Positions 34,504-61,333 of a DNA stretch of 64,000 nucleotides are shown piece by piece. A program made the position numbers and the translations under genes. The stretch is from Odiellus spinosus (taxonomy: Eukaryota; Arthropoda; Arachnida; Opiliones; Phalangiidae), in NCBI GenBank assembly GCA_963920705.1, contig OY987226.1, positions 28,032,706-28,096,705 on the forward strand, written 5' to 3'. The stretch's first letter is position 1. Each line of letters starts with the position of its first letter. Below the pieces are notes generated by a model, which worked only from the letters and a program-made list of their open reading frames with translations, did not search any database and was not told the origin of the DNA.

Positions 34504-35879
34504 GAGCTATTTTCAATTGAGTTATTTTCAATAGAAGAGCTATTTTCAATTGAGTTATTTTCAATTGAAGAGTTATTTGAAGAGTTATTTTCGATTGAGA
34601 GTTATTTTCAATTGAAAGGTTATTTTCGATTGAGAGTTATTTTCAATTGAGGAGTTATTTTCAAATTAAAGAGTTATTTTCAATTGAAGAGTTATTTTCA
34701 ATTGAAGAGTTATTTTCAATTGAAAGGTTATTTTCCATTGAAGAGTTATTTTCGATTGAAGAGTTATTTTCAATTGAAGAGTTATTTGAAGAGTTATTTT
34801 CAATTGAAGAGTTATTTTCAATTGAAAGGTGATTTTCCATTGAAGAGTTATTTTCAATTGAAGAGTTATTTTCCATTAAAGAGTTATTTTCAATTGAAGA
34901 GTTATTTTCGATTGAGAGTTATTTTCAATTGAAGAGTTATTTTCAATTGAAGAGTTATTTTCGATTGAAGAGTTATTTTCCATTGAAGAGTTATTTTCAA
35001 TCGAAGAGTTATTTTCAATCGAAGGGTTATTTTCAATTGAAGAGTTATTTTTCATTGAAGAGTTATTTTCCATTGAAGAGTTATTTTCAATTGAAGAGTT
35101 ATTTTTCATTGAAGAGTTATTTTCCATTGAAGAGTTATTTTCAATTGAAGAGTTATTTTCAATTGAAGAGTTATTTTCAATTGAAGAGTTATTTTCAATT
35201 GAAGAGTTATTTTCGATTGAGTTATTTTCAATTGAAGAGTTATTTGAAGAGTTATTTTCAATTAAAGAGTTATTTTCAATTGAAGAGTTATTTTCCATTG
35301 AGGAGTTATTTTCAATTAAAGAGTTATTTTCAATTGAAGAGTTATTTTCAATTGAAGAGTTATTTTCAATTGAAAGGTGATTTTCATTGAAGAGTTATTT
35401 TCAATTGAAGAGTTATTTTCAATTGAAATGTTATTTTCAATTGAAGAGTTATTTTACGTTGAAGAGCTATTTTCAGATGAAGAGTTATTTTCAGTTGAAG
35501 AGTTATTTTCAATTGAAGAGTTATTTTCAGTTGAAGAGTTATTTTCAATTGAAGAGTTATTTTCAATTGAAGAGTTATTTTCAATTGAAGAGTTATATTC
35601 AATTGAAGAGTTATTTTCAATTGAAGAGGTATTTTCGATTGAGAGTTATTTTCAATTGAAGAGTTATTTTCAATTGACGAGTTATTTTCAATCGTAGAGT
35701 TATTTTCAGTTGAAGAGTTATTTTCAATTGAAGAGTTATTTTCGATTGAAGAGTTATTTTCCATTGAAGAGTTATTTTCAATTGAAGAGTTATTTTTCAT
35801 TGAAGAGTTATTTTCCATTGAAGAGTTATTTTCAATTGAAGAGTTATTTTCAATTGAAGAGTTATTTTCAATTGAAGAG

Positions 35880-35945
35880 TTATTTTCGATTGAGTTATTT
35901 TCAATTGAAGAGTTATTTTCGATTGAGTTATTTTCAATTGAAGAG
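35880..35945 (+). repeat. 33-bp composite repeat, 2 units
   Basis: Two 15-mer plus 18-mer units in super-repeat copy 1. The counterpart in copy 2 is 49404-49469. Confidence 0.95.
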
Positions 35946-38092
35946 TTATTTGAAGAGTTATTTTCAATTAAAGAGTTATTTTCAATTGAAGAGTTATTTT
36001 CAATTGAGGAGTTATTTTCAACTAAAGAGTTATTTTCAATTGAAGAGTTATTTTCAATTGAAGAGTTATTTTCAATTGAAACGTGATTTTCCATTGAAGA
36101 GTTATTTTCAATTGAAGAGTTATTTTCAATTGAAGAGTTATTTCACGTTGAAGAGCTATTTTCAGTTGAAGAGTTATTTTCAGTTGAAGAGTTATTTTCA
36201 ATTGAAGAGTTATTTTCCATTGAAGAGTTATTTTCAATTAAAGAGTTATTTTCAATTGAAGAGTTATTTTCAATTGAAGAGTTATATTCAATTGATGAGT
36301 TATTTTCAATTGAAGAGTTATTTTCAATTCAAGAGTTATTTTCAATTGAAGAGCTATTTTCAATTGAAGAGTTATTTTCAATTGAAAGGTTATTTTCCAT
36401 TGAAGAGTTATTTTCAATTGAAGAGTTATTTTCTATTGTAGAGTTATTTTCAATTGAAAGGTTATTTTCCATTGAAGAGTTATTTTCAATTAAAGAGTTA
36501 TTTTCAATTGAAGAGTTATTTTCAATTGAAGAGTTATTTTCAATTGAAGAGTTATTTTCAATTGAAGAGTTATTTTCAATGTAAAGGTGATTTTCCATTG
36601 AAGAGTTATTTTCAATTGAAGAGTTATTTTCAATTGAAGAGTTATTTTCAATTGAAGAGTTATTTTCAATTGAAAGGTTATTTTCCATTGATGAGTTATT
36701 TTCGATTGAAGAGTTATTTTCAATTGAAGAGTTATTTTCAATTGAAGAGTTATTTTCAATTGAAGAGTTATTTTCAATTGAAGAGTTATTTTCAATTGAA
36801 GAGTTATTTTCAATTGAAGAGTTATTTTCAATTGAAGAGTTATTTTCAATTGAAGAGTTATTTTCAATTGAAAGGTGATTTTCCATTGAAGAGTTATTTT
36901 CAATTGAAGAGGTATTTTCCATTAAAGAGTTATTTTCAATTGAAGAGTTATTTTCGATTGAGAGTTATTTTCAATTGAAGAGTTATTTTCAATCGAAGGG
37001 TTATTTTCAATTGAAGAGTTATTTTTCATTGAAGTATTATTTTCCATTGAAGAGTTATTTTCAATTGAAGAGTTATTTTCCATTGAAGAGTTATTTTCAA
37101 TTGAAAGGTTATTTTCCATTGAAGAGTTATTTTCGATTGAAGAGTTATTTTCAATTGAAGAGTTATTTTACGTTGAAGAGCTATTTTCAGTTGAAGAGTT
37201 ATTTTCAGTTGAAGAGTTATTTTCAATTGAAGAGTTATTTTCCATTGAAGAGTTATTTTCAATTAAAGAGTTATTTTCAATTGAAGAGTTATTTTCAATT
37301 GAAGAGTTATATTCAATTGATGAGTTATTTTCAATTGAAGAGTTATTTTCAATTGAAGAGTTATTTTCAATTGAAGAGTTATTTTCAATTGAAGAGTTAT
37401 TTTCAATTGAAAGGTTATTTTCCATTGAAGAGTTATTTTCAATTGAAGAGTTATTTTCAATTGAAGAGTTATTTTCAATTGAAAGGTTATTTTCCATTGA
37501 AGAGTTATTTTCAATTGAAGAGTTATTTTCAATTGAAGAGTTATTTTCAATGTAAAGGTGATTTTCCATTGAAGAGTTATTTTCGATTGAAGAGTTATTT
37601 TCAATTGAAGAGTTATTTTCAATTGAAGAGTTATTTCAATTGAAGAGTTATTTTCAATTGAAAGGTGATTTTCCATTGAAGAGTTATTTTCAATTGAAGA
37701 GTTATTTTCCATTAAAGAGTTATTTTAAATTGAAGAGTTATTTTCGATTGAGAGTTATTTTCAATTGAAGAGTTATTTTCAATCGAAGGGTTATTTTCAA
37801 TTGAAGAGTTATTTTCAATTGAAAGGTTATTTTCAATTTAAGAGTTATTTTACGTTGAAGAGCTATTTTCAGTTGAAGAGTTATTTTCAATTGAAGAGTT
37901 ATTTTCAATTGAAGAGTTATTTTCAATTGAAGAGTTATTTTCAATTGAAGAGTTATTTTCAATTGAAGAGTTATTTTCAATTGAAGAGTTATTTTCAATT
38001 GAAGAGTTATTTTCAATTGAATATTTATTTTCAATTGAAGAGTTATTTTCAATTGAAGAGTTATTTTCGATTGAGAGTTATTTTCAATTGAA

Positions 38093-38246
38093 GAGCTATT
38101 TTCAATTGAGTTATTTTCAATTGAAGAGCTATTTTCAATTGAGTTATTTTCAATTGAAGAGCTATTTTCAATTGAGTTATTTTCAATTGAAGAGTTATTT
38201 GAAGAGTTATTTTCGATTGAGAGTTATTTTCAATTGAAAGGTTATT
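38093..38246 (+). repeat. Divergent L1 landmark variant
   Basis: Three GAGCTATTTTCAATT-led pairs in which the usual CAATAGAAG is CAATTGAAG, and the CAAATTAAAGAG end is missing. The equivalent at 51437 has two pairs, so this block has also changed by one 33-bp pair since the super-repeat duplicated. Confidence 0.85.
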
Positions 38247-38457
38247 TTCCATTGAAGAGTTATTTTCAATTAAAGAGTTATTTTCAATTGAAGAGTTATT
38301 TTCAATTGAAGAGTTATTTTCAATTGAAGAGTTATTTTCAATTGAAAGGTGATTTTCCATTGAAGAGTTATATTCAATTGAAGAGTTATTTTCAATTGAA
38401 AGGTTATTTTCAATTGAAGAGTTATTTTACGTTGAAGAGCTATTTTCAGTTGAAGAG

Positions 38458-38673
38458 TTATTTTCAATTGAAGAGTTATTTTCAATTGAAGAGTTATTTT
38501 CAATTGAAGAGTTATTTTCAATTGAAGAGTTATTTTCAATTGAAGAGTTATTTTCAATTGAAGAGTTATTTTCAATTGAAGAGTTATTTTCAATTGAAGA
38601 GTTATTTTCAATTGAAGAGTTATTTTCAATTGAAGAGTTATTTTCAATTGAAGAGTTATTTTCAATTGAAGAG
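38458..38673 (+). repeat. Run of 12 canonical monomers
   Basis: Twelve perfect monomers between a TTTTCAGTTG monomer and a TTTTCCATTAAAGAG monomer. The same site in the second super-repeat copy (51769-52002) has thirteen. Confidence 0.95.
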
Positions 38674-39253
38674 TTATTTTCCATTAAAGAGTTATTTTCA
38701 ATTGAAGAGGTATTTTCGATTGAGAGTTATTTTCAATCGAAGGGTTATTTTCAATTGAAGAGTTATTTTTCATTGAAGAGTTATTTTCCATTGAAGAGTT
38801 ATTTTCAATTGAAGAGTTATTTTCAATTGAAGAGTTATTTTCGATTGAGTTATATTCAATTGAAGAGTTATTTGAAGAGTTATTTTCAATTGAAGAGTTA
38901 TTTTCAATTGAAGAGTTATATTCAATTGAAGAGTTATTTTCAATTGAAGAGTTATTTTCATTTGAAGAGTTATTTTCAATTGAAGAGTCATTTTCAATTG
39001 AAGAGTTATTTTCAATTGAAGAGTTATTTTCAATTGAAGAGTTATTTTCAATTGAAGAGTTATTTTCCATTAAAGAGTTATTTTCAATTGAAGAGGTATT
39101 TTCGATTGAGAGTTATTTTCAATTGAAGAGTTATTTTCAATCGAAGGGTTATTTTCAATTGAAGAGTTATTTTTCATTGAAGAGTTATTTTCCATTGAAG
39201 AGTTATTTTCAATTGAAGAGTTATTTTCAATTGAAGAGTTATTTTCGATTGAG

Positions 39254-39852
39254 TTATATTCAATTGAAGAGTTATTTGAAGAGTTATTTTCAATTGAAGA
39301 GTTATTTGAAGAGTTATTTGAAGAGTTATTTGAAGAGTTATTTGAAGAGTTATTTGAAGAGTTATTTTCAATTGAAGAGTTATTTGAAGAGTTATTTTCA
39401 ATTGAAGAGTTATTTGAAGAGTTATTTTCAATTGAAGAGTTATTTTCAATTGAAGAGTTATTTTCAATTGAAGAGTTATTTGAAGAGTTATTTTCAATTG
39501 AAGAGTTATTTGAAGAGTTATTTTCAATTGAAGAGTTATTTGAAGAGTTATTTTCAATTGAAGAGTTATTTGAAGAGTTATTTTCAATTGAAGAGTTATT
39601 TTCAATTGAAGAGTTATTTAAAGAGTTATTTTCAATTGAAGAGTTATTTGAAGAGTTATTTTCAATTGAAGAGTTATTTGAAGAGTTATTTCAATTGAAG
39701 AGTTATTTGAAGAGTTATTTTCAATTGAAGAGTTATTTGAAGAGTTATTTTCAATTGAAGAGTTATTTGAAGAGTTATTTTCAATTGAAGAGTTATTTGA
39801 AGAGTTATTTTCAATTGAAGAGTTATTTGAAGAGTTATTTTCAATTGAAGAG
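39254..39852 (+). repeat. 30-bp composite tract with pure 12-mer core
   Basis: Alternating canonical 18-mers and 12-mers (TTATTTGAAGAG). Positions 39302-39361 are five 12-mers in direct succession, the longest pure 12-mer run I found. One 12-mer variant reads TTATTTAAAGAG (near 39,612), and a 17-mer TTATTTCAATTGAAGAG near 39,688 shifts the phase by one base. The counterpart at 52583-53198 has only two 12-mers in a row at the equivalent place. Confidence 0.95.
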
Positions 39853-39904
39853 TTATTTTCGATTGAGAGTTATTTTCAATTGAAGAGTTATTTTCGATTG
39901 AGAG

Positions 39905-40090
39905 TTATTTTCAATTGAAGAGTTATTTGAAGAGTTATTTTCAATTGAAGAGTTATTTGAAGAGTTATTTTCAATTGAAGAGTTATTTTCAATTGAAGAG
40001 TTATTTGAAGAGTTATTTTCAATTGAAGAGTTATTTGAAGAGTTATTTTCAATTGAAGAGTTATTTGAAGAGTTATTTTCAATTGTCGAG
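39905..40090 (+). repeat. 30-bp tract ending at TCGAG marker (5 units + extra 18-mer)
   Basis: Five 18+12 units with one additional 18-mer in the middle, ending in TTATTTTCAATTGTCGAG. It has the same length (186 bp) and the same interruption as 53251-53436. Confidence 0.95.
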
Positions 40091-40715
40091 TTATTTTCGA
40101 TTGAGAGTTATTTTACGTTGAAGAGCTATTTTCAGTTGAAGAGTTATTTTCAGTTGAAGAGTTATTTTCAATTGAAGAGTTATTTTCCATTGAAGAGTTA
40201 TTTTCAATTAAAGAGTTTATTTCAATTGAAGAGTTATTTTCAATTGAAGAGTTATATTCAATTGATGAGTTATTTTCAATTGAAGAGTTATTTTCAATTG
40301 AAGAGTTATTTTCAATTGAAGAGTTATTTTCAGTTGAAGAGTTATTTTCAATTGAAGAGTTATTTTCCAATGAAGAGTTATTTTCAATTAAAGAGTTATT
40401 TTCAATTGAAGAGTTATTTTCAATTGAAGAGTTATATTCAATTGAAGAGTTATTTTCAATTGAAGAGTTATTTTCAATTGAAGAGTTATTTTCAATTGAA
40501 GAGTTATTTTCAATTGAAGAGTTATTTTCAATTGAAGAGTTATTTTCAATTGAAGAGTTATTTTCAATTGAAGAGTTATTTTCAATTGAAGAGTTATTTT
40601 CAATTGAAGAGTTATTTTCAATTGAAGAGTTATTTTCAATTGAAGAGTAATTTTCAATTGAAGAGTTATTTTCAATTGAAGAGTTATTTTCGATTGAGAG
40701 TTATTTTCAATTGAA

Positions 40716-41503
40716 GAGCTATTTTCAATTGAGTTATTTTCAATAGAAGAGCTATTTTCAATTGAGTTATTTTCAATTGAAGAGTTATTTGAAGAGTTAT
40801 TTTCGATTGAGAGTTATTTTCAATTGAAAGGTTATTTTCCATTGAAGAGTTATTTTCAATTAAAGAGTTATTTTCAAATTAAAGAGTTATTTTCAATTGA
40901 AGAGTTATTTTCAATTGAAGAGTTATTTTCAATTGAAGAGTTATTTTCAGTTGAAGAGTTATTTTCAATTGAAGAGTTATTTTCCAATGAAGAGTTATTT
41001 TCAATTAAAGAGTTATTTTCAATTGAAGAGTTATTTTCAATTGAAGAGTTATATTCAATTGAAGAGTTATTTTCAATTGAAGAGTTATTTTCAATTGAAG
41101 AGTTATTTTCAATTGAAGAGTTATTTTCAATTGAAGAGTTATTTTCAATTGAAGAGTTATTTTCAATTGAAGAGTTATTTTCAATTGAAGAGTTATTTTC
41201 AATTGAAGAGTTATTTTCAATCGAAGAGTTATTTTCAATTGAAGAGTTATTTTCAATTGAAGAGTAATTTTCAATTGAAGAGTTATTTTCAATTGAAGAG
41301 TTATTTTCGATTGAGAGTTATTTTCAATTGAAGAGCTATTTTCAATTGAGTTATTTTCAATAGAAGAGCTATTTTCAATTGAGTTATTTTCAATTGAAGA
41401 GTTATTTGAAGAGTTATTTTCGATTGAGAGTTATTTTCAATTGAAAGGTTATTTTCCATTGAAGAGTTATTTTCAATTAAAGAGTTATTTTCAAATTAAA
41501 GAG
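40716..41503 (+). repeat. 617-bp L1-bounded tandem duplication (super-repeat copy 1 only)
   Basis: L1 occurs at 40716-40886 and again at 41333-41503, both in a 171-bp form where a TTTTCCATTG monomer replaces the second 17-mer. The second super-repeat copy has a single L1 here (54044). The spacing fits unequal exchange between L1 blocks. Confidence 0.8.
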
Positions 41504-41935
41504 TTATTTTAAATTGAAGAGTTATTTTCAATTGAAAGGTTATTTTCCATTGAAGAGTTATTTTCGATTGAAGAGTTATTTTCAATTGAAGAGTTATTTT
41601 ACGTTGAAGAGCTATTTTCAGTTGAAGAGTTATTTTCAGTTGAAGAGTTATTTTCAATTGAAGAGTTATTTTCAGTTGAAGAGTTATTTTCAATTGAAGA
41701 GTTATTTTCAATTGAAGAGTTATTTTCAATTGAAGAGTTATTTTCAATTGAAGAGTTATTTTCAATTGAAGAGTTATTTTCAATTGAAGAGTTATTTTCA
41801 ATTGAAGAGTTATTTTCAATTGAAGAGTTATTTTCAATTGAAGAGTTATTTTCAATTGAAGAATTATTTTCAATTGAAGAGTTATTTTCAATTGAAGAGT
41901 TATTTTCAATTGAAGAGTTATTTTCAATTGAAGAG

Positions 41936-42120
41936 TTATTTTCAATTGAAGAGTTATTTGAAGAGTTATTTTCAATTGAAGAGTTATTTGAAGAGTTATT
42001 TTCAATTGAAGAGTTATTTTCAATTGAAGAGTTATTTGAAGAGTTATTTCAATTGAAGAGTTATTTGAAGAGTTATTTTCAATTGAAGAGTTATTTGAAG
42101 AGTTATTTTCAATTGAAGAG
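41936..42120 (+). repeat. Short 30-bp composite tract
   Basis: Mixed 18-mers and 12-mers, with one 17-mer TTATTTCAATTGAAGAG near 42,045, ending at a TAATTTTC monomer. The counterpart in copy 2 (54611-54705) is less than half as long. Confidence 0.9.
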
Positions 42121-42773
42121 TAATTTTCAATTGAAGAGTTATTTTCAATTGAAGAGTTATTTTCGATTGAGAGTTATTTTCAATTGAAGAGCTATTTTCA
42201 ATTGAGTTATTTTCAATAGAAGAGCTATTTTCAATTGAGTTATTTTCAATTGAAGAGTTATTTGAAGAGTTATTTTCGATTGAGAGTTATTTTCAATTGA
42301 AAGGTTATTTTCCATTGAAGAGTTATTTTCAATTAAAGAGTTATTTTCAATTGAAGAGTTATTTTCAATTGAGGAGTTATTTTCAAATTAAAGAGTTATT
42401 TTAAATTGAAGAGTTATTTTCAATTGAAGAGTTATTTTCAATTGAAAGGTTATTTTCCATTGAAGAGTTATTTTCGATTGAAGAGTTATTTTCAATTGAA
42501 GAGTTATTTTACGTTGAAGAGCTATTTTCAGTTGAAGAGTTATTTTCAGTTGAAGAGTTATTTTCAATTAAAGAGTTATTTTCCATTGAAGAGTTATTTT
42601 CAATTAAAGAGTTATTTTCAATTGAAGAGTTATTTTCAATTGAAGAGTTATATTCAATTGAAGAGTTATTTTCAATTGAAGAGTTATTTTCAATTGAAGA
42701 ATTATTTACAATTGAAGAGTTATTTTCAATTGAAGAGTTATTTTCAATTGAAGAGTTATTTTCAATTGAAGAG

Positions 42774-43060
42774 TTATTTTCAATTGAAGAGTTATTTGAA
42801 GAGTTATTTTCAATTGAAGAGTTATTTGAAGAGTTATTTTCAATTGAAGAGTTATTTTCAATTGAAGAGTTATTTGAAGAGTTATTTCAATTGAAGAGTT
42901 ATTTGAAGAGTTATTTTCAATTGAAGAGTTATTTGAAGAGTTATTTGAAGAGTTATTTTCAATTGAAGAGTTATTTGAAGAGTTATTTTCAATTGAAGAG
43001 TTATTTGAAGAGTTATTTTCAATTGAAGAGTTATTTGAAGAGTTATTTTCAATTGAAGAG
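42774..43060 (+). repeat. 30-bp composite tract
   Basis: 18+12 units with one doubled 12-mer near 42,928 and one 17-mer near 42,884. The counterpart 55359-55645 has the same length (287 bp) and carries a private TTTTCTATTG monomer near 55,425. Confidence 0.95.
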
Positions 43061-43112
43061 TTATTTTCGATTGAGAGTTATTTTCAATTGAAGAGTTATT
43101 TTCGATTGAGAG

Positions 43113-43340
43113 TTATTTTCAATTGAAGAGTTATTTGAAGAGTTATTTTCAATTGAAGAGTTATTTGAAGAGTTATTTTCAATTGAAGAGTTATTTGAAG
43201 AGTTATTTTCAATTGAAGAGTTATTTGAAGAGTTATTTTCAATTGAAGAGTTATTTGAAGAGTTATTTTCAATTGAAGAGTTATTTGAAGAGTTATTTTC
43301 AATTGAAGAGTTATTTGAAGAGTTATTTTCAATTGTCGAG
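43113..43340 (+). repeat. 30-bp tract ending at TCGAG marker, 7 units
   Basis: Seven perfect 18+12 units closed by TTATTTTCAATTGTCGAG. The tract lies between a 17-mer pair and the TTTTACGTTGAAGAG monomer. Confidence 0.95.
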
Positions 43341-44221
43341 TTATTTTCGATTGAGAGTTATTTTACGTTGAAGAGCTATTTTCAGTTGAAGAGTTATTTT
43401 CAGTTGAAGAGTTATTTTCAATTGAAGAGTTATTTTCCATTGAAGAGTTATTTTCAATTAAAGAGTTTATTTCAATTGAAGAGTTATTTTCAATTGAAGA
43501 GTTATATTCAATTGATGAGTTATTTTCAATTGAAGAGTTATTTTCAATTGAAGAGTTATTTTCAGTTGAAGAGTTATTTTCAATTGAAGAGTTATTTTCC
43601 AATGAAGAGATATTTTCAATTAAAGAGTTATTTTCAATTGAAGAGTTATATTCAATTGAAGAGTTATTTTGAATTGAAGAGTTATTTTCAATTGAAGAGT
43701 TATTTTCAATTGAAGAGTTATTTTCAATTGAAGAGTTATTTTCAATTGAAGAGTAATTTTCAATTGAAGAGTTATTTTCAATTGAAGAGTTATTTTCGAT
43801 TGAGAGTTATTTTCAATTGAAGAGCTATTTTCAATTGAGTTATTTTCAATAGAAGAGCTATTTTCAATTGAGTTATTTTCAATTGAAGAGTTATTTGAAG
43901 AGTTATTTTCGATTGAGAGTTATTTTCAATTGAAGAGTTATTTTCAATTGAAGAGTTATTTTCAATTGAAGAGTTATTTTCAATTGAAGAGTTATTTTCA
44001 ATTGAAAAGTTATTTTCAATTGAAGAGTTATTTTCCATTAAAGAGTTATTTTCAATTGAAGAGGTATTTTCGATTGAGAGTTATTTTCAATTGAAGAGTT
44101 ATTTTCAATCGAAGGGTTATTTTCAATTGAAGAGTTATTTTTCATTGAAGAGTTATTTTCCATTGAAGAGTTATTTTCAATTGAAGAGTTATTTTCAATT
44201 GAAGAGTTATTTTCGATTGAG

Positions 44222-44791
44222 TTATATTCAATTGAAGAGTTATTTGAAGAGTTATTTTCAATTGAAGAGTTATTTGAAGAGTTATTTTCAATTGAAGAGT
44301 TATTTGAAGAGTTATTTGAAGAGTTATTTGAAGAGTTATTTTCAATTGAAGAGTTATTTGAAGAGTTATTTGAAGAGTTATTTGAAGAGTTATTTGAAGA
44401 GTTATTTTCAATTGAAGAGTTATTTTCAATTGAAGAGTTATTTGAAGAGTTATTTTCAATTGAAGAGTTATTTTCAATTGAAGAGTTATTTTCAATTGAA
44501 GAGTTATTTTCAATTGAAGAGTTATTTGAAGAGTTATTTTCAATTGAAGAGTTATTTGAAGAGTTATTTTCAATTGAAGAGTTATTTGAAGAGTTATTTT
44601 CAATTGAAGAGTTATTTGAAGAGTTATTTTCAATTGAAGAGTTATTTGAAGAGTTATTTTCAATTGAAGAGTTATTTGAAGAGTTATTTTCAATTGAAGA
44701 GTTATTTGAAGAGTTATTTTCAATTGAAGAGTTATTTGAAGAGTTATTTTCAATTGAAGAGTTATTTGAAGAGTTATTTTCAATTGAAGAG
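44222..44791 (+). repeat. 30-bp composite tract with 12-mer runs
   Basis: Starts with a TATATTCAATTG monomer and includes runs of three and then four 12-mers near 44,300-44,400, followed by a long regular 18+12 series. Related tracts are at 58051-58326 and 58557-59442. Confidence 0.95.
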
Positions 44792-44843
44792 TTATTTTCG
44801 ATTGAGAGTTATTTTCAATTGAAGAGTTATTTTCGATTGAGAG

Positions 44844-45250
44844 TTATTTTCAATTGAAGAGTTATTTGAAGAGTTATTTTCAATTGAAGAGTTATTTGAA
44901 GAGTTATTTTCAATTGAAGAGTTATTTGAAGAGTTATTTTCAATTGAAGAGTTATTTGAAGAGTTATTTTCAATTGAAGAGTTATTTGAAGAGTTATTTT
45001 CAATTGAAGAGTTATTTGAAGAGTTATTTTCAATTGAAGAGTTATTTGAAGAGTTATTTTCAATTGAAGAGTTATTTGAAGAGTTATTTCAATTGAAGAG
45101 TTATTTGAAGAGTTATTTTCAATTGAAGAGTTATTTGAAGAGTTATTTTCAATTGAAGAGTTATTTGAAGAGTTATTTTCAATTGAAGAGTTATTTGAAG
45201 AGTTATTTTCAATTGAAGAGTTATTTGAAGAGTTATTTTCAATTGAAGAG
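44844..45250 (+). repeat. 30-bp composite tract
   Basis: Regular 18+12 units, with one 17-mer TTATTTCAATTGAAGAG near 45,087 that shifts phase by one base. Flanked on both sides by CGATTGAGAG 17-mers. Confidence 0.95.
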
Positions 45251-45302
45251 TTATTTTCGATTGAGAGTTATTTTCAATTGAAGAGTTATTTTCGATTGAG
45301 AG

Positions 45303-47171: not shown

Positions 47172-47223
47172 TTATTTTCGATTGAGAGTTATTTTCAATT
47201 GAAGAGTTATTTTCGATTGAGAG

Positions 47224-49403: not shown

Positions 49404-49469
49404 TTATTTTCGATTGAGTTATTTTCAATTGAAGAGTTATTTTCGATTGAGTTATTTTCAATTGAAGAG
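49404..49469 (+). repeat. 33-bp composite repeat, 2 units
   Basis: Counterpart of 35880-35945 in the second super-repeat copy, with unchanged copy number. Confidence 0.95.
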
Positions 49470-51768
49470 TTATTTGAAGAGTTATTTTCAATTAAAGAGT
49501 TATTTTCAATTGAAGAGTTATTTTCAATTGAGGAGTTATTTTCAACTAAAGAGTTATTTTCAATTGAAGAGTTATTTTCAATTGAAGAGTTATTTTCAAT
49601 TGAAGAGTTATTTTCAATTGAAACGTGATTTTCCATTGAAGAGTTATTTTCAATTGAAGAGTTATTTTCAATTGAAGAGTTATTTCACGTTGAAGAGCTA
49701 TTTTCAGTTGAAGAGTTATTTTCAGTTGAAGAGTTATTTTCAATTGAAGAGTTATTTTCCATTGAAGAGTTATTTTCAATTAAAGAGTTATTTTCAATTG
49801 AAGAGTTATTTTCAATTGAAGAGTTATATTCAATTGATGAGTTATTTTCAATTGAAGAGTTATTTTCAATTCAAGAGTTATTTTCAATTGAAGAGCTATT
49901 TTCAATTGAAGAGTTATTTTCAATTGAAGAGTTATTTTCAATTGAAAGGTTATTTTCCATTGAAGAGTTATTTTCAATTGAAGAGTTATTTTCTATTGTA
50001 GAGTTATTTTCAATTGAAAGGTTATTTTCCATTGAAGAGTTATTTTCAATTAAAGAGTTATTTTCAATTGAAGAGTTATTTTCAATTGAAGAGTTATTTT
50101 CAATTGAAGAGTTATTTTCAATTGAAGAGTTATTTTCAATGTAAAGGTGATTTTCCATTGAAGAGTTATTTTCAATTGAAGAGTTATTTTCAATTGAAGA
50201 GTTATTTTCAATTGAAGAGTTATTTTCAATTGAAAGGTTATTTTCCATTGAAGAGTTATTTTCGATTGAAGAGTTATTTTCAATTGAAGAGTTATTTTCA
50301 ATTGAAGAGTTATTTTCAATTGAAGAGTTATTTTCAATTGAAGAGTTATTTTCAATTGAAGAGTTATTTTCAATTGAAGAGTTATTTTCAATTGAAGAGT
50401 TATTTTCAATTGAAGAGTTATTTTCAATTGAAAGGTGATTTTCCATTGAAGAGTTATTTTCAATTGAAGAGGTATTTTCCATTAAAGAGTTATTTTCAAT
50501 TGAAGAGTTATTTTCGATTGAGAGTTATTTTCAATTGAAGAGTTATTTTCAATCGAAGGGTTATTTTCAATTGAAGAGTTATTTTTCATTGAAGTATTAT
50601 TTTCCATTGAAGAGTTATTTTCAATTGAAGAGTTATTTTCCATTGAAGAGTTATTTTCAATTGAAAGGTTATTTTCCATTGAAGAGTTATTTTCGATTGA
50701 AGAGTTATTTTCAATTGAAGAGTTATTTTACGTTGAAGAGCTATTTTCAGTTGAAGAGTTATTTTCAATTGAAGAGTTATTTTCAATTGAAGAGTTATTT
50801 TCAATTGAAAGGTTATTTTCCATTGAAGAGTTATTTTCAATTGAAGAGTTATTTTCAATTGAAGAGTTATTTTCAATGTAAAGGTGATTTTCCATTGAAG
50901 AGTTATTTTCGATTGAAGAGTTATTTTCAATTGAAGAGTTATTTTCAATTGAAGAGTTATTTCAATTGAAGAGTTATTTTCAATTGAAAGGTGATTTTCC
51001 ATTGAAGAGTTATTTTCAATTGAAGAGTTATTTTCCATTAAAGAGTTATTTTAAATTGAAGAGTTATTTTCGATTGAGAGTTATTTTCAATTGAAGAGTT
51101 ATTTTCAATCGAAGGGTTATTTTCAATTGAAGAGTTATTTTCAATTGAAAGGTTATTTTCAATTTAAGAGTTATTTTACGTTGAAGAGCTATTTTCAGTT
51201 GAAGAGTTATTTTCAATTGAAGAGTTATTTTCAGTTGAAGAGTTGTTTTCAATTGAAGAGTTATTTTCAATTGAAGAGTTATTTTCAATTGAAGAGTTAT
51301 TTTCAATTGAAGAGTTATTTTCAATTGAAGAGTTATTTTCAATTGAAGAGTTATTTTCAATTGAATATTTATTTTCAATTGAAGAGTTATTTTCAATTGA
51401 AGAGTTATTTTCGATTGAGAGTTATTTTCAATTGAAGAGCTATTTTCAATTGAGTTATTTTCAATTGAAGAGCTATTTTCAATTGAGTTATTTTCAATTG
51501 AAGAGTTATTTGAAGAGTTATTTTCGATTGAGAGTTATTTTCAATTGAAAGGTTATTTTCCATTGAAGAGTTATTTTCAATTAAAGAGTTATTTTCAATT
51601 GAAGAGTTATTTTCAATTGAAGAGTTATTTTCAATTGAAGAGTTATTTTCAATTGAAAGGTGATTTTCCATTGAAGAGTTATTTTCAATTGAAGAGTTAT
51701 TTTCAATTGAAAGGTTATTTTCAATTGAAGAGTTATTTTACGTTGAAGAGCTATTTTCAGTTGAAGAG

Positions 51769-52002
51769 TTATTTTCAATTGAAGAGTTATTTTCAATTGA
51801 AGAGTTATTTTCAATTGAAGAGTTATTTTCAATTGAAGAGTTATTTTCAATTGAAGAGTTATTTTCAATTGAAGAGTTATTTTCAATTGAAGAGTTATTT
51901 TCAATTGAAGAGTTATTTTCAATTGAAGAGTTATTTTCAATTGAAGAGTTATTTTCAATTGAAGAGTTATTTTCAATTGAAGAGTTATTTTCAATTGAAG
52001 AG
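51769..52002 (+). repeat. Run of 13 canonical monomers
   Basis: Thirteen perfect monomers at the site that has twelve in the first super-repeat copy (38458-38673). The nearby monomer TTATATTC at about 38,370 is TTATTTTC in this copy. Confidence 0.95.
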
Positions 52003-52582
52003 TTATTTTCCATTAAAGAGTTATTTTCAATTGAAGAGGTATTTTCGATTGAGAGTTATTTTCAATCGAAGGGTTATTTTCAATTGAAGAGTTATTTTTC
52101 ATTGAAGAGTTATTTTCCATTGAAGAGTTATTTTCAATTGAAGAGTTATTTTCAATTGAAGAGTTATTTTCGATTGAGTTATATTCAATTGAAGAGTTAT
52201 TTGAAGAGTTATTTTCAATTGAAGAGTTATTTTCAATTGAAGAGTTATATTCAATTGAAGAGTTATTTTCAATTGAAGAGTTATTTTCATTTGAAGAGTT
52301 ATTTTCAATTGAAGAGTCATTTTCAATTGAAGAGTTATTTTCAATTGAAGAGTTATTTTCAATTGAAGAGTTATTTTCAATTGAAGAGTTATTTTCCATT
52401 AAAGAGTTATTTTCAATTGAAGAGGTATTTTCGATTGAGAGTTATTTTCAATTGAAGAGTTATTTTCAATCGAAGGGTTATTTTCAATTGAAGAGTTATT
52501 TTTCATTGAAGAGTTATTTTCCATTGAAGAGTTATTTTCAATTGAAGAGTTATTTTCAATTGAAGAGTTATTTTCGATTGAG

Positions 52583-53198
52583 TTATATTCAATTGAAGAG
52601 TTATTTGAAGAGTTATTTTCAATTGAAGAGTTATTTGAAGAGTTATTTGAAGAGTTATTTTCAATTGAAGAGTTATTTGAAGAGTTATTTTCAATTGAAG
52701 AGTTATTTTCAATTGAAGAGTTATTTTCAATTGAAGAGTTATTTGAAGAGTTATTTTCAATTGAAGAGTTATTTGAAGAGTTATTTTCAATTGAAGAGTT
52801 ATTTGAAGAGTTATTTTCAATTGAAGAGTTATTTGAAGAGTTATTTTCAATTGAAGAGTTATTTGAAGAGTTATTTTCAATTGAAGAGTTATTTTCAATT
52901 GAAGAGTTATTTGAAGAGTTATTTTCAATTGAAGAGTTATTTTCAATTGAAGAGTTATTTGAAGAGTTATTTTCAATTGAAGAGTTATTTGAAGAGTTAT
53001 TTTCAATTGAAGAGTTATTTCAATTGAAGAGTTATTTGAAGAGTTATTTTCAATTGAAGAGTTATTTCAATTGAAGAGTTATTTGAAGAGTTATTTTCAA
53101 TTGAAGAGTTATTTGAAGAGTTATTTTCAATTGAAGAGTTATTTGAAGAGTTATTTTCAATTGAAGAGTTATTTGAAGAGTTATTTTCAATTGAAGAG
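52583..53198 (+). repeat. 30-bp composite tract
   Basis: Counterpart of 39254-39852 with a different internal order: only one doubled 12-mer, several doubled 18-mers, and two 17-mers TTATTTCAATTGAAGAG (near 53,010 and 53,065). Confidence 0.95.
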
Positions 53199-53250
53199 TT
53201 ATTTTCGATTGAGAGTTATTTTCAATTGAAGAGTTATTTTCGATTGAGAG

Positions 53251-53436
53251 TTATTTTCAATTGAAGAGTTATTTGAAGAGTTATTTTCAATTGAAGAGTT
53301 ATTTGAAGAGTTATTTTCAATTGAAGAGTTATTTTCAATTGAAGAGTTATTTGAAGAGTTATTTTCAATTGAAGAGTTATTTGAAGAGTTATTTTCAATT
53401 GAAGAGTTATTTGAAGAGTTATTTTCAATTGTCGAG
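53251..53436 (+). repeat. 30-bp tract ending at TCGAG marker (5 units + extra 18-mer)
   Basis: Same 186-bp structure as 39905-40090, so it has not changed since the super-repeat duplication. Confidence 0.95.
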
Positions 53437-55358
53437 TTATTTTCGATTGAGAGTTATTTTACGTTGAAGAGCTATTTTCAGTTGAAGAGTTATTTTCAGT
53501 TGAAGAGTTATTTTCAATTGAAGAGTTATTTTCCATTGAAGAGTTATTTTCAATTAAAGAGTTTATTTCAATTGAAGAGTTATTTTCAATTGAAGAGTTA
53601 TATTCAATTGATGAGTTATTTTCAATTGAAGAGTTATTTTCAATTGAAGAGTTATTTTCAATTGAAGAGTTATTTTCAGTTGAAGAGTTATTTTCAATTG
53701 AAGAGTTATTTTCCAATGAAGAGTTATTTTCAATTAAAGAGTTATTTTCAATTGAAGAGTTATTTTCAATTGAAGAGTTATATTCAATTGAAGAGTTATT
53801 TTGAATTGAAGAGTTATTTTCAATTGAAGAGTTATTTTCAATTGAAGAGTTATTTTCAATTGAAGAGTTATTTTCAATTGAAGAGTTATTTTCAATTGAA
53901 GAGTTATTTTCAATTGAAGAGTTATTTTCAATTGAAGAGTTATTTTCAATTGAAGAGTTATTTTCAATTGAAGAGTAATTTTCAATTGAAGAGTTATTTT
54001 CAATTGAAGAGTTATTTTCGATTGAGAGTTATTTTCAATTGAAGAGCTATTTTCAATTGAGTTATTTTCAATAGAAGAGCTATTTTCAATTGAGTTATTT
54101 TCAATTGAAGAGTTATTTGAAGAGTTATTTTCGATTGAGAGTTATTTTCAATTGAAAGGTTATTTTCCATTGAAGAGTTATTTTCAATTAAAGAGTTATT
54201 TTCAAATTAAAGAGTTATTTTAAATTGAAGAGTTATTTTCAATTGAAGAGTTATTTTCAATTGAAAGGTTATTTTCCATTGAAGAGTTATTTTCGATTGA
54301 AGAGTTATTTTCAATTGAAGAGTTATTTTACGTTGAAGAGCTATTTTCAGTTGAAGAGTTATTTTCAGTTGAAGAGTTATTTTCAATTGAAGAGTTATTT
54401 TCAATTGAAGAGTTATTTTCAATTGAAGAGTTATTTTCAATTGAAGAGTTATTTTCAATTGAAGAGTTATTTTCAATTGAAGAGTTATTTTCAATTGAAG
54501 AGTTATTTTCAATTGAAGAGTTATTTTCAATTGAAGAGTTATTTTCAATTGAAGAGTTATTTTCAATTGAAGAATTATTTTCAATTGAAGAGTTATTTTC
54601 AATTGAAGAGTTATTTTCAATTGAAGAGTTATTTGAAGAGTTATTTCAATTGAAGAGTTATTTTCAATTGAAGAGTTATTTGAAGAGTTATTTTCAATTG
54701 AAGAGTAATTTTCAATTGAAGAGTTATTTTCAATTGAAGAGTTATTTTCGATTGAGAGTTATTTTCAATTGAAGAGCTATTTTCAATTGAGTTATTTTCA
54801 ATAGAAGAGCTATTTTCAATTGAGTTATTTTCAATTGAAGAGTTATTTGAAGAGTTATTTTCGATTGAGAGTTATTTTCAATTGAAAGGTTATTTTCCAT
54901 TGAAGAGTTATTTTCAATTAAAGAGTTATTTTCAATTGAAGAGTTATTTTCAATTGAGGAGTTATTTTCAAATTAAAGAGTTATTTTAAATTGAAGAGTT
55001 ATTTTCAATTGAAGAGTTATTTTCAATTGAAAGGTTATTTTCCATTGAAGAGTTATTTTCGATTGAAGAGTTATTTTCAATTGAAGAGTTATTTTACGTT
55101 GAAGAGCTATTTTCAGTTGAAGAGTTATTTTCAGTTGAAGAGTTATTTTCAATTAAAGAGTTATTTTCCATTGAAGAGTTATTTTCAATTAAAGAGTTAT
55201 TTTCAATTGAAGAGTTATTTTCAATTGAAGAGTTATATTCAATTGAAGAGTTATTTTCAATTGAAGAGTTATTTTCAATTGAAGAATTATTTTCAATTGA
55301 AGAGTTATTTTCAATTGAAGAGTTATTTTCAATTGAAGAGTTATTTTCAATTGAAGAG

Positions 55359-55645
55359 TTATTTTCAATTGAAGAGTTATTTGAAGAGTTATTTTCAATT
55401 GAAGAGTTATTTGAAGAGTTATTTTCTATTGAAGAGTTATTTTCAATTGAAGAGTTATTTGAAGAGTTATTTCAATTGAAGAGTTATTTGAAGAGTTATT
55501 TTCAATTGAAGAGTTATTTGAAGAGTTATTTGAAGAGTTATTTTCAATTGAAGAGTTATTTGAAGAGTTATTTTCAATTGAAGAGTTATTTGAAGAGTTA
55601 TTTTCAATTGAAGAGTTATTTGAAGAGTTATTTTCAATTGAAGAG
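55359..55645 (+). repeat. 30-bp composite tract
   Basis: Counterpart of 42774-43060, identical in length and in the positions of the doubled 12-mer and the 17-mer. Confidence 0.95.
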
Positions 55646-55697
55646 TTATTTTCGATTGAGAGTTATTTTCAATTGAAGAGTTATTTTCGATTGAGAG

Positions 55698-55895
55698 TTA
55701 TTTTCAATTGAAGAGTTATTTGAAGAGTTATTTTCAATTGAAGAGTTATTTGAAGAGTTATTTTCAATTGAAGAGTTATTTGAAGAGTTATTTTCAATTG
55801 AAGAGTTATTTGAAGAGTTATTTTCAATTGAAGAGTTATTTGAAGAGTTATTTTCAATTGAAGAGTTATTTGAAGAGTTATTTTCAATTGTCGAG
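55698..55895 (+). repeat. 30-bp tract ending at TCGAG marker, 6 units
   Basis: Six 18+12 units. The equivalent tract in super-repeat copy 1 (43113-43340) has seven. Confidence 0.95.
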
Positions 55896-56325
55896 TTATT
55901 TTCGATTGAGAGTTATTTTACGTTGAAGAGCTATTTTCAGTTGAAGAGTTATTTTCAGTTGAAGAGTTATTTTCAATTGAAGAGTTATTTTCCATTGAAG
56001 AGTTATTTTCAATTAAAGAGTTTATTTCAATTGAAGAGTTATTTTCAATTGAAGAGTTATATTCAATTGATGAGTTATTTTCAATTGAAGAGTTATTTTC
56101 AATTGAAGAGTTATTTTCAGTTGAAGAGTTATTTTCAATTGAAGAGTTATTTTCCAATGAAGAGATATTTTCAATTAAAGAGTTATTTTCAATTGAAGAG
56201 TTATTTTCAATTGAAGAGTTATATTCAATTGAAGAGTTATTTTGAATTGAAGAGTTATTTTCAATTGAAGAGTTATTTTCAATTGAAGAGTTATTTTCAA
56301 TTGAAGAGTTATTTTCGATTGAGAG

Positions 56326-56583
56326 TTATTTTCAATTGAAGAGTTATTTGAAGAGTTATTTTCAATTGAAGAGTTATTTGAAGAGTTATTTTCAATTGAA
56401 GAGTTATTTGAAGAGTTATTTTCAATTGAAGAGTTATTTGAAGAGTTATTTTCAATTGAAGAGTTATTTGAAGAGTTATTTTCAATTGAAGAGTTATTTG
56501 AAGAGTTATTTTCAATTGAAGAGTTATTTGAAGAGTTATTTTCAATTGAAGAGTTATTTGAAGAGTTATTTTCAATTGTCGAG
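56326..56583 (+). repeat. 30-bp tract ending at TCGAG marker, 8 units
   Basis: Eight 18+12 units, the largest count among the TCGAG-closed tracts. Confidence 0.95.
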
Positions 56584-57102
56584 TTATTTTAGATTGAGAG
56601 TTATTTTACGTTGAAGAGCTATTTTCAGTTGAAGAGTTATTTTCAGTTGAAGAGTTATTTTCAATTGAAGAGTTATTTTCCATTGAAGAGTTATTTTCAA
56701 TTAAAGAGTTTATTTCAATTGAAGAGTTATTTTCAATTGAAGAGTTATATTCAATTGATGAGTTATTTTCAATTGAAGAGTTATTTTCAATTGAAGAGTT
56801 ATTTTCAGTTGAAGAGTTATTTTCAATTGAAGAGTTATTTTCCAATGAAGAGATATTTTCAATTAAAGAGTTATTTTCAATTGAAGAGTTATTTTCAATT
56901 GAAGAGTTATATTCAATTGAAGAGTTATTTTGAATTGAAGAGTTATTTTCAAGTGAAGAGTTATTTTCAATTGAAGAGTTATTTTCAATTGAAGAGTTAT
57001 TTTCAATTGAAGAGTAATTTTCAATTGAAGAGTTATTTTCAATTGAAGAGTTATTTTCGATTGAGAGTTATTTTCAATTGAAGAGTTATTTTCGATTGAG
57101 AG

Positions 57103-57330
57103 TTATTTTCAATTGAAGAGTTATTTGAAGAGTTATTTTCAATTGAAGAGTTATTTGAAGAGTTATTTTCAATTGAAGAGTTATTTGAAGAGTTATTTTC
57201 AATTGAAGAGTTATTTGAAGAGTTATTTTCAATTGAAGAGTTATTTGAAGAGTTATTTTCAATTGAAGAGTTATTTGAAGAGTTATTTTCAATTGAAGAG
57301 TTATTTGAAGAGTTATTTTCAATTGTCGAG
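57103..57330 (+). repeat. 30-bp tract ending at TCGAG marker, 7 units
   Basis: Seven 18+12 units closed by the TCGAG monomer. Confidence 0.95.
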
Positions 57331-58050
57331 TTATTTTCGATTGAGAGTTATTTTACGTTGAAGAGCTATTTTCAGTTGAAGAGTTATTTTCAGTTGAAGA
57401 GTTATTTTCAATTGAAGAGTTATTTTCCATTGAAGAGTTATTTTCAATTAAAGAGTTTATTTCAATTGAAGAGTTATTTTCAATTGAAGAGTTATATTCA
57501 ATTGATGAGTTATTTTCAATTGAAGAGTTATTTTCAATTGAAGAGTTATTTTCAGTTGAAGAGTTATTTTCAATTGAAGAGTTATTTTCCAATGAAGAGA
57601 TATTTTCAATTAAAGAGTTATTTTCAATTGAAGAGTTATTTTCAATTGAAGAGTTATATTCAATTGAAGAGTTATTTTGAATTGAAGAGTTATTTTCAAT
57701 TGAAGAGTTATTTTCAATTGAAGAGTTATTTTCAATTGAAGAGTTATTTTCAATTGAAGAGTAATTTTCAATTGAAGAGTTATTTTCAATTGAAGAGTTA
57801 TTTTCGATTGAGAGTTATTTTCAATTGAAGAGCTATTTTCAATTGAGTTATTTTCAATAGAAGAGCTATTTTCAATTGAGTTATTTTCAATTGAAGAGTT
57901 ATTTGAAGAGTTATTTTCGATTGAGAGTTATTTTCAATTGAAGAGTTATTTTCAATTGAAGAGTTATTTTCAATTGAAGAGTTATTTTCAATTGAAGAGT
58001 TATTTTCAATTGAAGAGTTATTTTCAATTGAAGAGTTATTTTCGATTGAG

Positions 58051-58326
58051 TTATATTCAATTGAAGAGTTATTTGAAGAGTTATTTTCAATTGAAGAGTT
58101 ATTTGAAGAGTTATTTTCAATTGAAGAGTTATTTGAAGAGTTATTTTCAATTGAAGAGTTATTTGAAGAGTTATTTGAAGAGTTATTTGAAGAGTTATTT
58201 TCAATTGAAGAGTTATTTGAAGAGTTATTTGAAGAGTTATTTGAAGAGTTATTTGAAGAGTTATTTTCAATTGAAGAGTTATTTTCAATTGAAGAGTTAT
58301 TTGAAGAGTTATTTTCAATTGAAGAG
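58051..58326 (+). repeat. 30-bp composite tract with 12-mer runs
   Basis: Starts with a TATATTCAATTG monomer and repeats the order of 44222 onward, including runs of three and four 12-mers. It is followed within 250 bp by a second, longer copy of the same tract (58557), so this is a local duplication absent from super-repeat copy 1. Confidence 0.9.
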
Positions 58327-58556
58327 TTATTTTCAATTGAAGAGTTATTTTCAATTGAAGAGTTATTTTCCATTAAAGAGTTATTTTCAATTGAAGAGGT
58401 ATTTTCGATTGAGAGTTATTTTCAATTGAAGAGTTATTTTCAATCGAAGGGTTATTTTCAATTGAAGAGTTATTTTTCATTGAAGAGTTATTTTCCATTG
58501 AAGAGTTATTTTCAATTGAAGAGTTATTTTCAATTGAAGAGTTATTTTCGATTGAG

Positions 58557-59442
58557 TTATATTCAATTGAAGAGTTATTTGAAGAGTTATTTTCAATTGA
58601 AGAGTTATTTGAAGAGTTATTTTCAATTGAAGAGTTATTTGAAGAGTTATTTGAAGAGTTATTTGAAGAGTTATTTTCAATTGAAGAGTTATTTGAAGAG
58701 TTATTTGAAGAGTTATTTGAAGAGTTATTTTCAATTGAAGAGTTATTTTCAATTGAAGAGTTATTTGAAGAGTTATTTTCAATTGAAGAGTTATTTTCAA
58801 TTGAAGAGTTATTTTCAATTGAAGAGTTATTTTCAATTGAAGAGTTATTTGAAGAGTTATTTTCAATTGAAGAGTTATTTGAAGAGTAATTTTCAATTGA
58901 AGAGTTATTTGAAGAGTTATTTTCAATTGAAGAGTTATTTGAAGAGTTATTTTCAATTGAAGAGTTATTTGAAGAGTTATTTTCAATTGAAGAGTTATTT
59001 GAAGAGTTATTTTCAATTGAAGAGTTATTTGAAGAGTTATTTTCAATTGAAGAGTTATTTGAAGAGTTATTTTCAATTGAAGAGTTATTTGAAGAGTTAT
59101 TTCAATTGAAGAGTTATCTGAAGAGTTATTTTCAATTGAAGAGTTATTTGAAGAGTTATTTTCAATTGAAGAGTTATTTGAAGAGTTATTTTCAATTGAA
59201 GAGTTATTTGAAGAGTTATTTTCAATTGAAGAGTTATTTGAAGAGTTATTTTCAATTGAAGAGTTATTTGAAGAGTTATTTCAATTGAAGAGTTATTTGA
59301 AGAGTTATTTTCAATTGAAGAGTTATTTGAAGAGTTATTTTCAATTGAAGAGTTATTTGAAGAGTTATTTTCAATTGAAGAGTTATTTGAAGAGTTATTT
59401 TCAATTGAAGAGTTATTTGAAGAGTTATTTTCAATTGAAGAG
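58557..59442 (+). repeat. Longest 30-bp composite tract (886 bp)
   Basis: Starts with TATATTCAATTG and runs through 12-mer triplets into a long 18+12 series. It has two 17-mers (near 59,100 and 59,278), a 12-mer with one substitution (TTATCTGAAGAG near 59,115) and a TAATTTTC monomer near 58,887. It corresponds to 44222-45250 of super-repeat copy 1, but without the 17-mer pair that splits that region. Confidence 0.95.
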
Positions 59443-59459
59443 TTATTTTCGATTGAGAG

Positions 59460-59657
59460 TTATTTTCAATTGAAGAGTTATTTGAAGAGTTATTTTCAAT
59501 TGAAGAGTTATTTGAAGAGTTATTTTCAATTGAAGAGTTATTTGAAGAGTTATTTTCAATTGAAGAGTTATTTGAAGAGTTATTTTCAATTGAAGAGTTA
59601 TTTGAAGAGTTATTTTCAATTGAAGAGTTATTTGAAGAGTTATTTTCAATTGTCGAG
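59460..59657 (+). repeat. 30-bp tract ending at TCGAG marker, 6 units
   Basis: Six 18+12 units closed by the TCGAG monomer. It follows a single 17-mer, rather than the usual 17-mer pair. Confidence 0.95.
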
Positions 59658-60016
59658 TTATTTTCGATTGAGAGTTATTTTACGTTGAAGAGCTATTTTC
59701 AGTTGAAGAGTTATTTTCAGTTGAAGAGTTATTTTCAATTGAAGAGTTATTTTCCATTGAAGAGTTATTTTCAATTAAAGAGTTTATTTCAATTGAAGAG
59801 TTATTTTCAATTGAAGAGTTATATTCAATTGATGAGTTATTTTCAATTGAAGAGTTATTTTCAATTGAAGAGTTATTTTCAATTGAAGAGTTATTTTCAG
59901 TTGAAGAGTTATTTTCAATTGAAGAGTTATTTTCCAATGAAGAGTTATTTTCAATTAAAGAGTTATTTTCAATTGAAGAGTTATTTTCAATTGAAGAGTT
60001 ATATTCAATTGAAGAG

Positions 60017-60232
60017 TTATTTTCAATTGAAGAGTTATTTTCAATTGAAGAGTTATTTTCAATTGAAGAGTTATTTTCAATTGAAGAGTTATTTTCAATT
60101 GAAGAGTTATTTTCAATTGAAGAGTTATTTTCAATTGAAGAGTTATTTTCAATTGAAGAGTTATTTTCAATTGAAGAGTTATTTTCAATTGAAGAGTTAT
60201 TTTCAATTGAAGAGTTATTTTCAATTGAAGAG
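60017..60232 (+). repeat. Run of 12 canonical monomers before TAATTTTC
   Basis: Twelve perfect monomers after a TATATTC monomer. The equivalent run at 40450-40647 has eleven. Confidence 0.95.
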
Positions 60233-60885
60233 TAATTTTCAATTGAAGAGTTATTTTCAATTGAAGAGTTATTTTCGATTGAGAGTTATTTTCAATTGAA
60301 GAGCTATTTTCAATTGAGTTATTTTCAATAGAAGAGCTATTTTCAATTGAGTTATTTTCAATTGAAGAGTTATTTGAAGAGTTATTTTCGATTGAGAGAT
60401 ATTTTCAATTGAAAGGTTATTTTCCATTGAAGAGTTATTTTCAATTAAAGAGTTATTTTCAATTGAAGAGTTATTTTCAATTGAGGAGTTATTTTCAAAT
60501 TAAAGAGTTATTTTAAATTGAAGAGTTATTTTCAATTGAAGAGTTATTTTCAATTGAAAGGTTATTTTCCATTGAAGAGTTATTTTCGATTGAAGAGTTA
60601 TTTTCAATTGAAGAGTTATTTTACGTTGAAGAGCTATTTTCAGTTGAAGAGTTATTTTCAGTTGAAGAGTTATTTTCAATTAAAGAGTTATTTTCCATTG
60701 AAGAGTTATTTTCAATTAAAGAGTTATTTTCAATTGAAGAGTTATTTTCAATTGAAGAGTTATATTCAATTGAAGAGTTATTTTCAATTGAAGAGTTATT
60801 TTCAATTGAAGAGTTATTTTCAATTGAAGAGTTATTTTCAATTGAAGAGTTATTTTCAATTGAAGAGTTATTTTCAATTGAAGAG

Positions 60886-61053
60886 TTATTTTCAATTGAA
60901 GAGTTATTTGAAGAGTTATTTTCAATTGAAGAGTTATTTGAAGAGTTATTTTCAATTGAAGAGTTATTTGAAGAGTTATTTTCAATTGAAGAGTTATTTG
61001 AAGAGTTATTTTCAATTGAAGAGTTATTTGAAGAGTTATTTTCAATTGAAGAG
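60886..61053 (+). repeat. 30-bp composite tract
   Basis: Five regular 18+12 units plus a closing 18-mer, then a 17-mer pair. It is shorter than the matching tract at 46723-47171 and lacks its doubled 18-mers. Confidence 0.95.
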
Positions 61054-61105
61054 TTATTTTCGATTGAGAGTTATTTTCAATTGAAGAGTTATTTTCGATT
61101 GAGAG

Positions 61106-61333
61106 TTATTTTCAATTGAAGAGTTATTTGAAGAGTTATTTTCAATTGAAGAGTTATTTGAAGAGTTATTTTCAATTGAAGAGTTATTTGAAGAGTTATT
61201 TTCAATTGAAGAGTTATTTGAAGAGTTATTTTCAATTGAAGAGTTATTTGAAGAGTTATTTTCAATTGAAGAGTTATTTGAAGAGTTATTTTCAATTGAA
61301 GAGTTATTTGAAGAGTTATTTTCAATTGTCGAG
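61106..61333 (+). repeat. 30-bp tract ending at TCGAG marker, 7 units
   Basis: Seven 18+12 units closed by the TCGAG monomer. Confidence 0.95.

Follow-up and report, generated by a model that had tools for sequence, protein, structure and literature searches.

When two long and nearly identical stretches lie head to tail in a satellite array, do they represent a higher-order repeat (HOR), that is, a unit reiterated at regular period, or the doubling of a block in a single event? This question is raised by a window of 64,000 bp from the genome of Odiellus spinosus (bases 28,032,706-28,096,705 of contig C2, which is 34.49 Mb long, in an assembly of 443 Mb and 286 contigs). The whole window is a single tandem array of period 18 that continues past both window ends, as judged by Tandem Repeats Finder (TRF) and flank sampling; cyclic-alignment segmentation divides it into 3,694 monomers of 108 types (12, 15, 17, 18 or 19 bp long), and it contains no N bases. 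An earlier, sequence-only reading had described in it two tandem copies of a 13.56-kb super-repeat, taken to be a HOR of about 750 monomers. By analysing 264 kb of contiguous array (the window with 70 kb to its left and 130 kb to its right), we find that the duplication is real and was well described by that reading, yet is an ordinary kind of event and not a 750-monomer HOR. Coordinates are those of the window unless a contig is named.

1..64000, + strand: 18-bp satellite array, consensus TTATTTTCAATTGAAGAG (TRF period 18 over 1-63,990; cyclic-alignment segmentation; flanks)
34256..47815, + strand: left copy (A) of the tandem pair, 13,560 bp, 797 monomers (left limit set by extending exact identity at offset 13,560; alignment to B)
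47816..61678, + strand: right copy (B) of the tandem pair, 13,863 bp, 817 monomers (exact extension; alignment to A)
47816..47856, + strand: junction of about 40 bp (slightly more than two consensus monomers), present in identical form where A begins and where B ends

A tandem pair in an 18-bp satellite

The two tandem copies of about 13.56 kb are borne out by k-mer spacing, exact extension, monomer alignment and a shuffle control. Among exact 40-, 60- and 100-mers present exactly twice in the window, the most frequent spacing is 13,560. Leftward exact extension at this offset places the start of A at 34,256 and that of B at 47,816, and the homology ends on the right at 47,856 in A terms and at 61,678 in B; the limits first proposed for the pair, 34504..61333, are corrected to those listed above. 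Copy A ends at 47,815 and copy B begins at 47,816, so that the two are adjacent head to tail and in monomer phase. About 40 bp at the junction recur at the outer limits of both copies, where A starts and where B finishes, and this breakpoint identity is weak evidence because consensus dimers are common in the array.

Distinct monomers were copied together with their order kept, as in a HOR: the global monomer alignment of A and B gave 679 identical pairs out of 690, with 30 gap events of 1-83 monomers, under three of four gap settings (673 of 684, with 28 gaps, under the remaining one). A local alignment that spanned a slightly different stretch found 668 identical pairs among 681, with 43 gap events; its 13 unlike pairs comprise 11 single substitutions, one loss of a single base and one complex change, and substitution amounts to about 0.1% over 11,613 bases. 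When the monomers of the B side were shuffled, A paired with 3, 9 and 0 monomers in three trials, against 697 in the real order. The earlier statements that base changes are rare and monomer-number changes common both hold: the differences cited at 34915/48475 and 36692/50252 are present, there are about 11 base changes between the copies, and about 30 events of gain or loss of whole monomers separate A from B.

Six rare variants had been reported at matching places in both halves. Five of them occur exactly twice in the 264 kb, in the same order, with A-to-B spacings of 13,524, 13,542, 13,542, 13,560 and 13,560; the sixth, CAATGTAAAGG, occurs at 29 places and is rejected as a marker of the unit. 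All six fall within about 1.9 kb near the unit start, and the remainder of the unit rests on the alignments.

We consider it likely, from the sequence, that the pair arose by a single, fairly recent tandem segmental duplication, through out-of-register homologous exchange or break-induced replication (BIR), followed by copy-number drift. Homologous exchange between sister chromatids would have occurred out of register at short runs of identical monomers; alternatively, at such runs, BIR would have restarted about 780 monomers behind the fork. Subsequent exchange and slippage would then have altered the monomer number in each copy. To the left, the sequence at 26.2-28.0 kb resembles the head of A, and to the right, that at 62.4-75.2 kb resembles its body; two kinds of sequence meet within the unit, as they would if a single event had duplicated the stretch regardless of its content. 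The duplication itself needs no cellular function.

Block copying and rival explanations

Duplication is widespread in the array. Each of 36 segments of 400 monomers (from -62,905 to 188,879) has a local match elsewhere that covers 70-364 monomers, and in 35 of the 36 the match lies within 14 kb. Base divergence is 0-0.15% in 11 duplicated pairs including A/B, seven of which have at least 235 aligned monomers and one about 780. Six further tandem duplications of about 5-6 kb, similarly little diverged, lie in the same 264 kb, and shorter tandem duplications with offsets of 1.7-6.3 kb, diverged equally to A/B, are numerous; the pair at offset 6,013 shows no difference in any of 295 monomers. 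One duplication overlaps the head of A, and another, at an offset of 5.63 kb, includes a 1.06-kb element within an exact match of 1,564 bp.

24639..35287 (24,639-29,414 and 30,357-35,287), + strand: tandem duplication with an initial offset of 5,718 bp, overlapping the head of A; 265 of 269 monomers identical
171,093-172,154 and 176,723-177,784: 1.06-kb element with inverted ends (by eye), two copies with satellite flanks, offset 5,630

The reading frame of the element is THAP-like (E 9.9e-5, just under the Pfam cut-off); as the 5.63-kb duplication carried this THAP-type element along, blocks are copied as segments. Variants also stay local, since CAATGTAAAGG in its context has 30 matches genome-wide, all confined to about 161 kb of C2 (28.069-28.231 Mb).

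The differences between A and B, and a piece of A found at a distance, show further blocks:

55628..57032, + strand: 83-monomer block in B only; 36 of 36 monomers of one part match the sequence to the right at offset 1,435
40594..41228, + strand: 36-monomer block in A only; 16 of 16 monomers of one part and 18 of 18 of the other match adjoining sequence at offset 617
37199..37432, + strand: 13-monomer (234-bp) block in A and in the 811-bp fragment, absent from B
36705..37515, + strand: segment of A with an ungapped 811-bp copy at C2:27,957,334-27,958,144

An in-register tandem origin was found for four of the 18 multi-monomer gaps between A and B. Genome-wide scans covered two variants in context, the non-private CAATGTAAAGG and the private GAAGTATTATTTTCC; the latter has three occurrences, in A, in B and at C2:27,957,656. 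Chance recurrence at this third place was considered and rejected: two pattern matches lie there 136 bp apart, as in A, and the 811-bp copy was then found. The fragment lies 112 kb to the left and has three mismatches to A 36,705-37,515, and its flanks are unlike those of A. Because it holds the 234-bp block that B lacks, either B lost the block or the fragment was copied from A.

Does block copying here proceed mainly by template switching or gene conversion (BIR) rather than by unequal crossing-over? We hold this possible, if on the unlikely side; it overlaps with the explanation given above and does not exclude it. Isolated blocks are hard to move by simple unequal crossing-over, and the 811-bp copy, 112 kb away and with unmatched flanks, suggests that template switching or gene conversion is also acting. 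Exact matches of at least 300 bp point the same way: 110 are more than 30 kb apart, against 883 that are closer (such matches overlap and are not independent, and 100-mers with more than 60 copies were excluded). Together with the fragment, these distant matches suggest that one-sided copying also occurs. Models of satellite change by unequal exchange (Smith 1976) and by BIR (Rice) are reviewed by Talbert and Henikoff 2022 (PMC8997354), where the BIR model is one published for alpha satellite. By contrast, a simple head-to-tail duplication such as the 13.56-kb pair could come about by either route, and sequence by itself does not decide between them; the fragment, too, resembles other places, though less closely, and may have a more complex history.

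It is improbable that A and B are instead the two haplotypes of a single locus, which the assembler placed one behind the other. The low substitution and the copy-number differences are such as two satellite alleles could show, and the unit is roughly of typical long-read length; moreover, a separate second haplotype of the locus appears to be absent from the assembly, because outside A and B the private marker is present nowhere but in the 811-bp fragment. The sequence is nevertheless free of N and the junction is seamless in monomer phase, and the many shorter tandem duplications in the array, equally diverged and spannable by single long reads, indicate that real tandem duplication is common here, which makes it likelier than joined haplotypes without being decisive.

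There remains the HOR itself, in which a unit of 13.56 kb (about 780 monomers) would have its two best copies here and a decayed third to the right. In its favour stand the two adjacent copies with their ordered variants and the following relative of the unit:

62352..64000, + strand: start of a diverged stretch related to part of the unit, its right two-thirds, and continuing to about 75.2 kb; the unit head is absent

Each of 40 targets, 900 monomers long and taken from the array outside the pair, was aligned with A and B under cheap and under stricter gap costs. With cheap gaps, A 39,350-47,362 aligns with 62,370-75,170 (373 of 408 monomers identical, score 581, against a median of 46 for the 40 targets and 1,924 for A versus B); in the segment-wise search A 40,504-46,326 matches 67,807-74,034, with 258 of 276 monomers identical. 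The offset of this relative, however, drifts from 23.0 to 27.7 kb, and under stricter gap costs the match fragments into pieces with other offsets, the best of which scores 242. The unit head (34.3-39.3 kb) was absent to the right of B from the top ten matches for each gap setting. As the adjoining stretch at 72.3-87.5 kb also scores 391 against the unit, the relative seems to represent a local type of sequence and not a copy, and we read it as older sequence common to the body of the unit and its right neighbour. In the 264 kb, A matches B best (score 1,831) and next, through 1.8 kb of its head, the duplicated blocks to the left (score 312). Neither the segment-wise local searches nor the comparison of A and B with the 40 targets found a third full copy in the 264 kb; the check for further copies to the right of the window gave, over 130 kb, only the diverged partial relative. 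Repeated 45-mers elsewhere in the array have irregular block spacings, unlike the many reiterations at regular period of a HOR. With two full copies and no more in the 264 kb, and with the scanned private marker limited to A, B and the 811-bp fragment, a giant HOR is very improbable and is rejected here.

Size spectrum of structural change

If the pair is a single duplication, is a block of 13.56 kb out of scale with the smaller changes around it? For 264 kb and an equal span of time, a power law fitted to the 30 gaps between A and B predicts 9.0 blocks (bootstrap 3.1-18.2) with 235 monomers or more and 4.6 (bootstrap 1.3-10.6) with 780 or more, against seven pairs and one pair of about 780 among the 11. 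The 13.56-kb block fits such a heavy-tailed distribution and is compatible with the large end of a process acting at all scales; the extrapolation is a consistency check, not proof.

Several points weigh against a single tandem duplication as one more product of such growth. The power-law predictions are sensitive to the tail (they fall to 5.7 and 2.6 without the two largest gaps), rest on only 30 gaps, pool duplications with deletions and are compared with selected pairs. Under an exponential size model, large blocks would be all but absent, and two separate processes are then possible. The gap count between A and B itself varies with the method, from 28 to 43, and 14 of the 18 multi-monomer gaps are not in-register tandem copies of their neighbour. 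The low divergence of the 11 pairs is partly a matter of selection, because they were chosen as strong matches and local alignment stops at divergence. The diverged and incomplete relative that follows B could be the remnant of an older, decayed third copy, and the placement of A and B on one chromosome depends on the assembly.

A broader proposal, which we regard as doubtful, is that structural mutation in the array forms one heavy-tailed process, from 1 to about 800 monomers, that exceeds substitution by about 3:1 per event and extends to isolated blocks copied across distances above 100 kb; it would point to growth by replication restart (template switching) over simple unequal crossing-over.

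Genomic setting and known satellites

The 18-bp satellite was found at every sampled place in C2:27,956,801-28,630,200, short insertions excepted, and is gone at 28.66 Mb, which gives an array of about 0.7 Mb. Its exact dimer occurs 34,489 times genome-wide, on C1 and C2 at least. To the left of the array lies a different satellite with a 23-bp unit, AGTATAGATCCACAAATTTCCCA (TRF, C2 27.95 Mb), which extends to 27.956 Mb and was also recognized by eye at C2 27.70-27.90 Mb; another, with a 22-bp unit, TTGAAACTTTTTCATTTTTCAA, is present at C2 30.0 Mb. The 18-bp monomer contains a 10-bp palindrome, TTCAATTGAA, and its dimer a hairpin with a 10-bp stem (z -6.0; none of 200 shuffles was equally stable); palindrome and hairpin could stall replication forks. 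One 2-kb query each gave no match to phage and plasmid sequence, in a search that filters low-complexity sequence and therefore says little, and one exact 36-mer gave no match in viral contigs. Six letter strings of the monomer had no published mention in the literature searched.

The array changes orientation along C2: at the sampled points it runs forward at 28.265 Mb, reverse at 28.280 and 28.300 Mb, forward at 28.320-28.580 Mb and reverse at 28.600 and 28.630 Mb, with switches bracketed at 28.265-28.280, 28.302-28.320 and 28.580-28.600 Mb. Another 18-bp array, on C1, switches orientation near 14.521 Mb (L001 ~1,387-1,413); some 30-mers are common to both arms, and no perfect palindrome longer than 10 bp was found at this switch. 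According to a 2026 paper (PMC13081366), macro-dyad symmetries of satellite arrays have so far been documented only in Tribolium.

Two insertions were observed in the array: a piece of retrotransposon at 84,296-86,907 with a reverse-transcriptase frame (Pfam RVT_1, E 3.3e-38), and a 0.66-kb insertion with long inverted arms (by eye) at 122,485-123,141. A forward frame of the satellite can remain open for hundreds of codons (for example L037 2901-5441, + strand, 846 amino acids with KSYFQL-type repeats), most likely as a by-product of the 18-bp unit. Elsewhere in the genome, nuclear stretches match mitochondrial COX1 on C17 (at about 1.11, 2.96, 3.13, 4.24 and 4.38-4.39 Mb) and on C14 (16.64 Mb); in the mitochondrial sequence the COX1 frame is followed directly by COX2, without space for a tRNA between them. 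TTAGG repeats lie within 4 kb of the right end of C1, and five successive TTAGGG units were absent. Telomeres of TTAGG, taken with this COX1-COX2 order, are in keeping with an arthropod that belongs outside the insect-crustacean group.

How does the pair compare with known satellites? The satellite segmental duplications treated by Talbert and Henikoff (PMC8997354) share with it head-to-tail blocks, monomer phase, high identity, copy number that outpaces substitution and locally private variants; unlike those that the review describes, the array here has an 18-bp monomer, blocks of very different sizes side by side and no fixed period. Ordered monomer variants copied as a block are also the mark of alpha-satellite HORs, the longest of which in humans is given as 34 monomers in the same review, but these are reiterated many times, whereas the block of about 800 monomers has two full copies. 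The contrast with alpha-satellite HORs drawn in the sequence-only reading is also less striking than it seemed, kilobase-scale units being known in satellites of very short monomers: human HSat3/DYZ1, thought to derive from a pentamer, has a unit of 3.6 kb in arrays of 7-98 Mb (PMC4022460). Like the DYZ1 unit, which by our own arithmetic (3.6 kb / 5 bp) would hold about 720 monomers, the present block is of kilobase size and made of several hundred very short monomers; unlike DYZ1, which is reiterated over megabases, the full 13.56-kb unit was found twice. In the saltatory amplification described for human centromeres, new HORs spread over more than 1 Mb (PMC11062924); structural changes interleaved with older sequence over a short time are common to both cases, but here single blocks were doubled.

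The block is an ordinary product of the growth and shrinkage of a satellite array, and it defines no new kind of repeat organisation. What such an array offers is dated pairs of duplicated blocks lying side by side, which let the rate and the size spectrum of structural change be measured against substitution.

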